Assembly (NCBI RefSeq): GCF_000336755.1
Contig: NZ_AOLK01000015.1
Coordinates: forward strand, 405,509-469,508
DNA length: 64,000 bases
Reading direction: 5' to 3'
Source of the DNA: Haloferax elongans ATCC BAA-1513
GTDB lineage: Archaea > Halobacteriota > Halobacteria > Halobacteriales > Haloferacaceae
The notes beneath the pieces were generated by a model. That model searched no databases. It was not told where the DNA came from and saw nothing but the letters and a program-made list of their open reading frames with translations. The position numbers were made by a program, and so were the translations under genes. Position 1 is the first letter of the stretch. Each line of letters begins with the position of its first letter. This document shows positions 31,233-33,412 of this stretch, piece by piece.

Positions 31233-31313
31233 ATGAACGCCGATATCCAAACCTCCAGCAAACGTCTGTTCGGTGGCTGTATCGGCGAGTCAACCACACC
31301 TCTTCCTCAGTAG
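31233..31313 (+). CDS. 26-residue leaderless small reading frame upstream of the UspA gene
   Basis: The frame begins MNADIQTSSKRLFGG and has 26 codons, stopping TAG at 31311-31313. The promoter spacing makes its ATG the predicted 5' end of the transcript. The stop codon is adjacent to GGAGTG (31313-31318), a Shine-Dalgarno-like match to the 16S 3' end, 9-10 nt before the UspA ATG. The layout suggests the small frame delivers ribosomes that re-initiate on uspA. The peptide has no recognisable family; it may be a regulatory leader rather than a functional protein. Confidence 0.4.
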   Translation: MNADIQTSSKRLFGGCIGESTTPLPQ

Positions 31314-31327
31314 GAGTGTTCCCCCCA

Positions 31328-31741
31328 ATGTCACAAACGAACCTCACCAGCCACGTACTCGTCCCCGTCGCAAACGAAGACGACGCTCGCGTCACTGCGA
31401 AGGCCCTCGAACCGTACTCCGTCGACCGCGTCACAGTCGTACACGTCGTCGAGAAAGGCGAAGGAGTGCCGGACAAAACGCCGGTCGAACAGTCCGAGTC
31501 GCTCGCTGCCGAGTCGTTCGCTGCGTTCCGCGACACCTTCCCCGACGCTGAGTCGGAGATAACGTATCGACGCGATGTCGTCGAGGGTATCGTCGACGTC
31601 GCCAACGACATCGACGCGAGTGCGGTCGCGTTCCACCCGAGACAAAGCGGTCGTATCATCAAATTGCTCTCTGGCGACCGAACACTCCAATTAGTCACGG
31701 GTGCTCCACTCCCCATCATCGCGCTCCCACACCCAGAATAA
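31328..31741 (+). CDS. UspA-family universal stress protein
   Basis: This 137-residue protein has the alpha/beta Usp fold: LTSHVLVPVANEDDARVTAKAL at the N-terminus, DRVTVVHVVEKGEG, and GRIIKLLSGDRTLQLVTGAPLPIIALP at the C-terminus, which is the usual end with an ATP-type loop region. The ATP-binding G-x2-G-x9-G(S/T) motif is weak here, so this may be a non-ATP-binding member. A ribosome-binding-site-like GGAGTG (31313-31318) is used, unlike most genes in the window. Confidence 0.8.
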   Translation: MSQTNLTSHVLVPVANEDDARVTAKALEPYSVDRVTVVHVVEKGEGVPDKTPVEQSESLAAESFAAFRDTFPDAESEITYRRDVVEGIVDVANDIDASAVAFHPRQSGRIIKLLSGDRTLQLVTGAPLPIIALPHPE

Positions 31742-31743
31742 GG

Positions 31744-31896
31744 ATGGCCCCCAGCGACGAGGAACTCGCGAAAGACCTATCGCAAAGCAACACGGCGAAT
31801 CGTCGACGCCATCCACATCGTGAGTCGAGCAACTGTTTGGCTAACACCGAAGCGACCGAGAGAGCGCCTATCACTCGGGATTCTTCAATTATCTAA
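31744..31896 (+). pseudogene. 50-codon remnant, possibly a frameshifted gene fragment
   Basis: Starting 2 nt after the uspA stop, a frame begins MAPSDEELAKDLSQSNTANR, with acidic, coding-like use. After about residue 20 its composition becomes odd, while the adjacent frame (starting around 31785) reads ATRRIVDAIHIVSRATVWL, which looks like a continued amphipathic protein. A frameshift inside a once longer gene would explain this. Alternatively it is chance. Stop TAA at 31894-31896 is in the original frame. Confidence 0.3.
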
Positions 31897-31900
31897 CTCA

Positions 31901-31910
31901 CATATTTATC
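31901..31910 (+). promoter_or_regulatory. TATA box of the short-frame-histidine-kinase unit
   Basis: CATATTTATC lies 24 nt before an ATG at 31935, which is therefore the predicted first codon of a leaderless transcript leading into the histidine kinase gene. Confidence 0.5.
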
Positions 31911-31934
31911 AAGACTGTCCAAAGAGTAGCACAT

Positions 31935-32036
31935 ATGGTCGCGCAGCGAGCATCGGCTCTTTTCCTGTCTTCTAGCCGGAGTGGGGCGGATTCGAGACGT
32001 CGCCTCAGGTGTCATTCGAGGGTGGCGGGGAGATGA
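31935..32036 (+). CDS. 33-residue leaderless small frame coupled to the histidine kinase gene
   Basis: The frame begins MVAQRASALFLSSSRSG, contains many Arg codons, and stops TGA at 32034-32036. The kinase ATG is at 32033, so the junction is ATGA, the overlap typical of translational coupling. Upstream is a well-placed TATA box. The sequence is not acidic, unlike real haloarchaeal proteins, so it could be a translated leader (regulatory) rather than a functional protein. Confidence 0.4.
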   Translation: MVAQRASALFLSSSRSGADSRRRLRCHSRVAGR

Positions 32037-33412
32037 GCGAGGATTTGAGACGAGAACTCGAGAGAACGGAGCGCTTCCTGAATCTTGTTCTCGAAACCGG
32101 AGAGATGAACGGTTCGAAGGTCGATACCAACCTCCGCCACACGTGGGTTCACAACTCGTCTCCCGAACCGCCAGAAGAAGAGATTCTCGGGCAGACAGAC
32201 GAAGAACTGTTCCCTGGTGAGCTTTCGCGGCCGACGACAGAACTGAAGCGTGACGCAATCGAGACGAAGTCGCGTGTCGAACGCGAGTTTACGTTCGTCA
32301 AGCCGTGGGGACAAAACCGCTACCGGGCTGCTGCCGAGCCGCTATACGATACCGGTGGCGACGTCGAAGGAGCCATGTTCGCGGCCATCAACCTCTCAGA
32401 CCGGTATCGGTTCCTTGAACGAACGACTGATGCGGTCTTCACCGTCGACTCCGAGTGGGTCGTCACGTTTTGGAACGAACGGATGGCCGACCGAACCAGG
32501 ATTGATGCGAACGAAATCGTCGGGGAAAACTACTGGGACGTGGTTGGTGAGGACGTTCCGTCGAAACTCGAAGCGGAGTACCGAGACGTGATGGAGACCG
32601 GCGGGTCGAGGGAGTTTGAACACTACTTCCCGGAGCCGATGGATATGTGGGTCGAGATTCGAGTGTTCGCCGACGACGATGGGTTCACCGTTTTATCACG
32701 CGACATCTCTGAACGAAAGGAGTACGAAAAACGACTGGAGAGACAGCGCAACACGCTCGAAATACTCAATCAGGTGCTTCGCCACGATATCCGAAACGAC
32801 CTCCAGTTGGTCATCGCCTACGCCGAGTTCGTCTCTGACAAATTGGACGACGAAGGGAAGGCACACTTAGAGACCGTCCGCGCGAGAGCGAATCACGCAG
32901 TCGAACTGACGAAGACTGCAGGCGACATCTCGAAAGTTCTGTTTTCGGAGGCTTCCGCGTCCGAGCCTGTGAACTTCCGAAGCGTTCTGGAACGCGAACT
33001 CGAAGATGCTCGGTCGTCGTTCCCCGAATCGGTGATTATCTCCGAGGGGCCACTCCCGAGCGTCACTGTCCGAGGCGACGACATGTTGGAGTCCGTCTTC
33101 CGCAATCTGTTGAAGAACGCGAACCAGCACAACGACAAGGAGATTCCGAATATAACCGTCTCCGCGGAGGAACGCGACGAAGACGTCGTGGTTCACATCG
33201 CAGACAACGGCCCCGGGATTCCAGACGGCCACAAGGAGAACATCTTCGGAAAAGGTGAGAAAGGCCTCGGGAGCAACGGCACCGGCATGGGTCTGTATCT
33301 CGTCCAGTCTCTCGTCGACACCTACGGCGGAGACATCCGCGTCGAAGACAACGACCCCGAAGGGTCCGTGTTCTCGGTCACGCTCCCGAAGGTGACTCGG
33401 TCGACTGCGTAA
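32033..33412 (+). CDS. PAS-PAS sensor histidine kinase
   Basis: This 459-residue soluble kinase has a first PAS-like region (about 25-120, LRHTWVHNSSPEP..EILGQTDEELFP), a second PAS (about 125-230, RTTDAVFTVDSEWVVTFWNE), a HisKA helix with His251 in VLRHDIRNDLQL, and an HATPase domain with the N box LKNANQHNDK, DNGPGIPDG, and GLGSNGTGMGLYLV. No transmembrane segment and no receiver are seen. An upstream in-frame GTG at 32009 is possible, but the ATGA overlap and start 32033 are favoured. Its response regulator is not adjacent. Confidence 0.88.
   Translation: MSEDLRRELERTERFLNLVLETGEMNGSKVDTNLRHTWVHNSSPEPPEEEILGQTDEELFPGELSRPTTELKRDAIETKSRVEREFTFVKPWGQNRYRAAAEPLYDTGGDVEGAMFAAINLSDRYRFLERTTDAVFTVDSEWVVTFWNERMADRTRIDANEIVGENYWDVVGEDVPSKLEAEYRDVMETGGSREFEHYFPEPMDMWVEIRVFADDDGFTVLSRDISERKEYEKRLERQRNTLEILNQVLRHDIRNDLQLVIAYAEFVSDKLDDEGKAHLETVRARANHAVELTKTAGDISKVLFSEASASEPVNFRSVLERELEDARSSFPESVIISEGPLPSVTVRGDDMLESVFRNLLKNANQHNDKEIPNITVSAEERDEDVVVHIADNGPGIPDGHKENIFGKGEKGLGSNGTGMGLYLVQSLVDTYGGDIRVEDNDPEGSVFSVTLPKVTRSTA

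Follow-up and report, generated by a model that had tools for sequence, protein, structure and literature searches.

A short frame behind a leaderless-type promoter overlaps a histidine kinase start in Haloferax elongans: a candidate feeder of ribosomes

The window analysed here is a stretch of 64,000 nucleotides from Haloferax elongans ATCC BAA-1513, in which a sensor histidine kinase gene (32033..33412, + strand) is directly preceded by a frame of 33 codons, stop included (31935..32036, +). The kinase has 459 aa and carries the Pfam domains PAS_4 and HATPase_c, with HisKA below the cut-off, and it is 93% identical to its counterpart in Haloferax larsenii JCM 13917 (L009). The short frame begins with ATG at 31935-31937 and ends with TGA at 32034-32036, and the kinase begins with ATG at 32033-32035, so that stop and start share the four letters ATGA (32033..32036, +), as in a termination-reinitiation pair. 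The overlap is also present in H. larsenii. Before the frame lies a TATA-like box, CATATTTATC, at 31901-31910, which belongs to a BRE/TATA-type promoter (CACATATTTATCAA; 31899..31912, +) in register with ATG 31935. The encoded peptide, MVAQRASALFLSSSRSGADSRRRLRCHSRVAGR, is basic and Arg/Ser-rich, with a predicted pI of 12.0. The earlier note on this DNA had given the box, the ATG, the codon number and the overlap, all of which proved exact by direct reading of the letters, and its description of the peptide as Arg/Ser-rich and not acidic agrees with the predicted pI. A plasmid search gave no matches to the locus.

The next gene upstream belongs to the Usp family (31328..31741, +; Pfam Usp), its start being taken from promoter scoring. 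It is preceded by a frame of 26 codons (31233..31313, +) with a strong leaderless-type promoter (9.34). The earlier note had also claimed that the same architecture occurs about 600 nt away. The frame at ATG 31233, which is the nearest candidate and by our guess the one that was meant, ends with a TAG that is separated from the Usp ATG by 14 nt and forms no ATGA, so that this detail of the note is not confirmed. Gaps of about 20 nt are reported to nearly abolish coupling in H. volcanii (PMC10666635), and therefore a frame with a 14-nt gap should couple poorly. A counterpart of the 26-codon frame is visible in H. larsenii (L290). In another genome (G005, L291), the place upstream of Usp is taken by a frame with CxxC pairs, which we take to resemble a zinc-finger small protein. 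Downstream of the Usp gene, a deletion scar is what remains of an amino-acid permease that had Usp domains at its C-terminus (31744..31844, +); the three pieces of this remnant match the start, the middle and the end of an intact 750-aa gene of H. larsenii (L009 561-2813). Three more distant permease matches were found elsewhere in the genome of the window, the best of them 62% identical. The possibility that the short frame is a piece of the decayed permease was rejected, since the remnant is closed earlier by TAA 31842-31844; likewise, the H. larsenii permease stops at 2813, and the frame there begins at 2903.

Promoters were scored with a BRE/TATA matrix trained on 261 start regions from 864 kb of the organism's own genome. 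The matrix was seeded with BRE+TTTATA, a seed that we chose ourselves, as we did the position prior; after training it recovered an A-rich BRE-like block and a TTWT core, which are elements reported for haloarchaea (PMC4983044). A first model, obtained by free EM, was discarded and replaced by the seeded matrix, as it had drifted to a codon-like TCGTC motif that is not a promoter. Under this rejected model the start in the window still scored high, and those of H. larsenii (equalled or exceeded at 28% of random positions) and of a more distant relative (G077) did not. With the seeded matrix, ATG 31935 scored 8.67, which is above more than 99.9% of the sampled window positions (fraction as high 0.0009, that is, the top 0.1%) and above about 85% of the matrix's own training starts. 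The box is correctly spaced for a leaderless transcript beginning at this ATG, in accordance with the spacing proposed earlier. No promoter was found by the same matrix at the kinase start, where ATG 32033 scored -0.1 and the in-frame GTG 32009 scored -8.59, both at or below background.

The kinase start itself had to be considered with care. GTG 32009 was examined as another start, the kinase frame being open from 31976 onwards; this start was rejected because the starts of the relatives align with ATG 32033 and no fitting promoter was found for it. H. larsenii carries TTG where the window has this GTG. From where the relatives start, ATG 32033 is thus the favoured, predicted start. A frameshifted N-terminus of the kinase was ruled out as well, since TAG at 31973-31975 stands in the kinase frame in both species, and the kinases of the relatives do not extend further N-terminally, which argues against a frameshift in the window.

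How easily such an arrangement could appear by itself was estimated by dinucleotide shuffles of the upstream region. Some ATG frame of 15-60 codons ending 1-10 nt inside the kinase start was obtained in 13% of the shuffles, and such a frame together with a promoter score of at least 6 in only 0.3% (observed score, 8.67). These rates bear on an alternative explanation, in which the short frame lies by chance in an ordinary 5'-UTR some 100 nt long, initiation at the kinase is independent of it, and the ATG and the open frame are coincidental in GC-rich DNA. Haloferax is known to initiate on leadered mRNAs independently of an SD motif, and the first rate leaves room for a chance overlap, whereas the second speaks against one in promoter register. 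Taking all the evidence given below together, we regard this explanation as unlikely.

Among the 78 loci of the kinase search, only L009 was used for close comparison, the rest being distant histidine kinases of at most 33% identity; genome G004 has the same sequence as L009 over the compared stretch. In H. larsenii (L009 2903-3004) the ATG, the 33 codons and the ATGA are all kept, with 25 substitutions in 99 positions and no indel. The box there is altered (CACACACTTATG) and 1 nt has been lost between box and ATG, and the score in register is still 8.35; both Haloferax species thus have a promoter in register with the ATG of the short frame and none at the kinase start. By codon position, the differences between the two species number 9/9/7 in the short frame and 24/12/85 in the kinase. 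The peptides agree at 18 of 33 positions, and random placement of the same substitutions gives a mean of 18.2. From the flat distribution over codon positions and an identity no better than random, the frame appears to survive with its peptide unselected, and no sign of purifying selection on the peptide was seen between the window and H. larsenii. The same random placement keeps the ATG and the open frame in 15% of trials, so that finding both in a single sister species carries only modest weight. A second reading frame of the same stretch is also free of stops in both species, for which reason the open frame by itself counts for little; this, like the lack of selection on the peptide, is what a coincidental frame would be expected to give.

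The same comparison decides largely against a genuine small protein made in an operon with the kinase, which is the least probable of the readings considered. Its own promoter, its ATG and its overlap are those of operon genes, but the codon-position differences of 9/9/7 do not fit a conserved protein, the peptide has no Pfam match, and its pI of 12.0 stands against the low pI of the uORF peptides reported from H. volcanii (PMC4983044). The suggestion in the earlier note that the peptide may be purely regulatory was strengthened in so far as the peptide looks dispensable. Another explanation goes further and takes the frame as a regulatory leader, in which translation of the short frame would sense a signal, through pausing or codon supply, and switch translation of the kinase as attenuating leader peptides do. 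The geometry would permit it, and leaderless short frames acting as leaders have been described in mycobacteria. However, a run of a single codon was looked for in the peptide and is absent, the peptide differs between the window species and H. larsenii, and the leader RNA folds more weakly than its shuffles in the two species (z +1.7 and +1.4), with no stable structure in either; a structured leader of the riboswitch or attenuator type was ruled out by this result. We therefore hold a regulatory leader to be highly improbable.

A full-length ortholog of the kinase was found in only two of 15 Haloferax genomes, that of the window and G004. More distant relatives were sought with the N-terminal 132 residues in overlapping sets of 197, 392, 146, 125, 170 and 391 genomes, and those with at least 54% identity over these residues were kept, plus one of 42% (L193), so that nine further kinases (42-73% identity) were examined. 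In L192 (70%), a frame of 38 codons with a promoter score of 6.07 ends as ATGA on the kinase. In L187 (72%), a frame of 32 codons with a promoter score of 6.26 overlaps the inferred GTG start of the kinase by 8 nt; its promoter core, TTCTT, deviates from the TTWT consensus. In both, the kinase start lacks a promoter (-6.48 in L192, -3.56 in L187), and no promoter-like site within 220 nt upstream scores better than that in register with the short frame. The shuffle rate of a promoter-backed overlapping frame is 0.0013 for L192 and 0.0067 for L187, and summed over the nine kinases from outside Haloferax the expectation is 0.034, against two observed. These two recurrences, which look independent, argue against chance.

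The other seven of the nine have no promoter-backed overlapping short frame, among them G077, the only other relative found from the same family, and this absence in most distant relatives agrees with a chance frame. As regards relatives, then, the claim of the earlier note holds for the sister species and fails for the majority of more distant kinases. Promoter scores at the kinase start are 3.56 in L127, 4.57 in L188, 5.12 in L190 and 3.6 in L194, values that are plausibly compatible with leaderless kinases having a promoter at their own start; in L189, L191 and L193 they are 1.1-1.5. The kinase tree is largely unresolved, and the kinases with the frame do not group in it (3 changes, with 221 of 500 label shuffles as low); a single origin of the short frame among the kinases would also be compatible with this tree.

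For a wider view, 2.4 Mb of the organism's own genome were surveyed, with 2038 long frames, 1151 of them with a usable ATG. Short frames were counted when they had an ATG and 12-60 codons, lay outside other genes and stopped within 60 nt of a gene start, and a promoter was scored as present at 4.5 or more at the right distance. By this measure 10 of 54 short frames ending as ATGA were promoter-backed, compared with 11 of 298 ending elsewhere within 60 nt (Fisher p=3.0e-4), so that ATGA frames carry a correctly spaced promoter about five times as often as the others; without the kinase of the window the figures are 9 of 53 and p=9.5e-4. When the motif was sought at six wrong distances, no excess was seen among ATGA frames (p 0.28-0.95), and an excess confined to the right promoter distance speaks against coincidental frames. 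Over thresholds from 3 to 8, p ranged from 5.8e-5 to 0.17; these p-values are indicative, since an initial scan of 864 kb had preceded the choice of threshold. Overlaps of 1 nt (19, two with promoter) and the other overlaps of 2-10 nt (13, four with promoter) were set apart from the main comparison; once every overlap of 1-10 nt is pooled, a promoter is present in 16 of 86 against 11 of 298 (p=2e-5). Nine of the ten promoter-backed ATGA cases precede genes without a promoter of their own, and one precedes a gene with a strong one (8.76). The peptide pI in the ten cases is above 10 in seven, 8.3 in one and below 6 in two. Further promoter-backed overlapping frames in this genome are found at C23 235165-235299, C19 316526-316660, C19 96010-96078 and C11 176950-177027, and the genes behind them resemble, judging by eye, an enzyme of the glucose-dehydrogenase type, a KaiC-type ATPase, an enzyme of the aldolase type and a permease.

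One of the ten is an unannotated leader frame of 36 codons (L163 13560-13670, - strand), which ends as ATGA on cheB, a gene whose product carries the Pfam domains CheB_methylest and Response_reg. The leader is present in all 15 Haloferax genomes compared (L195-L209), with the same TTTATATA box, an ATG frame and ATGA onto cheB; as several of these genomes are near-identical, they do not amount to 15 independent tests. It has 36 codons in 13 genomes, 37 in L205 and 52 in L199. Insertions of 3 and 48 nt lie inside the frame, and the only other indel, of 1 nt, lies between box and ATG. All 15 genomes keep the leader frame open; of the other two reading frames, one is open in 0 and one in 11. In codons 13-30, the differences by position number 530/527/581, without an excess at the third position, and such equal change at the three positions suggests a drifting peptide in a frame that is preserved. 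The promoter score at the cheB start is -0.2 or lower in 14 of 15 genomes and 3.3 in L199. A frame kept in 15 of 15 genomes, with insertions that stay in frame, again speaks against coincidence. The earlier proposal of a general leader strategy gains support from the cheB leader and the genome-wide excess, and it loses the instance on which it had partly been built, as the upstream frame 600-700 nt away does not overlap its gene. Overall, the interpretation given in the earlier note is partly supported.

In our opinion, the short frame is probably a leaderless feeder that passes ribosomes to the kinase by termination-reinitiation, its peptide being dispensable. Transcription would begin at ATG 31935 or a few nt from it, and a ribosome would initiate at the 5'-terminal AUG of the short frame in leaderless mode, translate the 33 codons, stop at UGA 32034-32036 and reinitiate at the overlapping kinase AUG 32033. 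As the kinase appears to have no promoter of its own, its translation rate would be set by leaderless initiation at the feeder frame. The features preserved are the promoter spacing, the ATG, an open frame and the ATGA, and the peptide appears dispensable. We infer the loading and the hand-over from what is reported for H. volcanii: 72% of its protein-coding transcripts are leaderless, which makes this its main mode of initiation (PMC4983044); strict coupling was found in 13 of 14 overlapping pairs tested, nine of them from H. volcanii (PMC6728339); and the sequel to that work gives overlaps of 4, 1 and 8 nt as the usual coupled forms (PMC10666635).

The present case shares with these coupled pairs of H. 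volcanii the 4-nt overlap, the genus and a downstream start that seems to lack an initiation signal of its own, and the 8-nt overlap of L187 is also among the coupled forms reported (PMC10666635). It differs from them in that their upstream partner is an annotated gene, whereas here it is a frame of 33 codons without a sign of selection on its peptide, right behind a leaderless promoter. uORFs have been reported in 16 of 97 H. volcanii transcripts with leaders of 150-250 nt, their peptides having a low pI (PMC4983044). These short frames are of similar size, and they too stand in leaders of normal genes of this genus, but the leader here has 98 nt, and the frame is basic, starts at the predicted end of the transcript and overlaps the gene. 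The part of that report dealing with uORFs is confined to leaders of 150-250 nt, so that those of about 100 nt fell outside it, and it mentions no overlap of the uORFs with a gene start. A leaderless bicistronic design in Corynebacterium glutamicum likewise has a leaderless fore-cistron feeding the next gene, but it is engineered, bacterial and reported to need an SD motif (PMC10367133), whereas the case in the window occurs naturally and in an archaeon. The pervasive leaderless translation of Mycobacterium tuberculosis resembles it in the many short leaderless frames that escape annotation; the parts of that report drawn on here state no tie to an overlap with the downstream gene (PMC9094748). 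In the openly licensed papers searched, no literature was found on leaderless short frames overlapping haloarchaeal gene starts. While both ATGA coupling and uORFs are known from Haloferax, their combination in a leaderless short frame looks new as a recurring class.

More tentatively, we propose that haloarchaea possess a class of natural leaderless feeder frames, among them those of signalling genes such as this kinase and cheB. Such frames would have a mostly dispensable peptide and an overlap of 4 (or 1 or 8) nt, would open leaderless initiation to genes without a promoter at their own start and set their dose, and would arise and be lost repeatedly. If this is true, some haloarchaeal genes with an apparent untranslated leader of about 100 nt would actually be fed by a short leaderless frame, and this would help to explain initiation on leadered mRNAs in a genus largely without Shine-Dalgarno initiation (PMC3986360). 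It would also add unannotated frames that are selected for the act of translation and not for the peptide. As all 15 Haloferax genomes compared have the cheB leader, the feeder idea is testable in a tractable laboratory organism.
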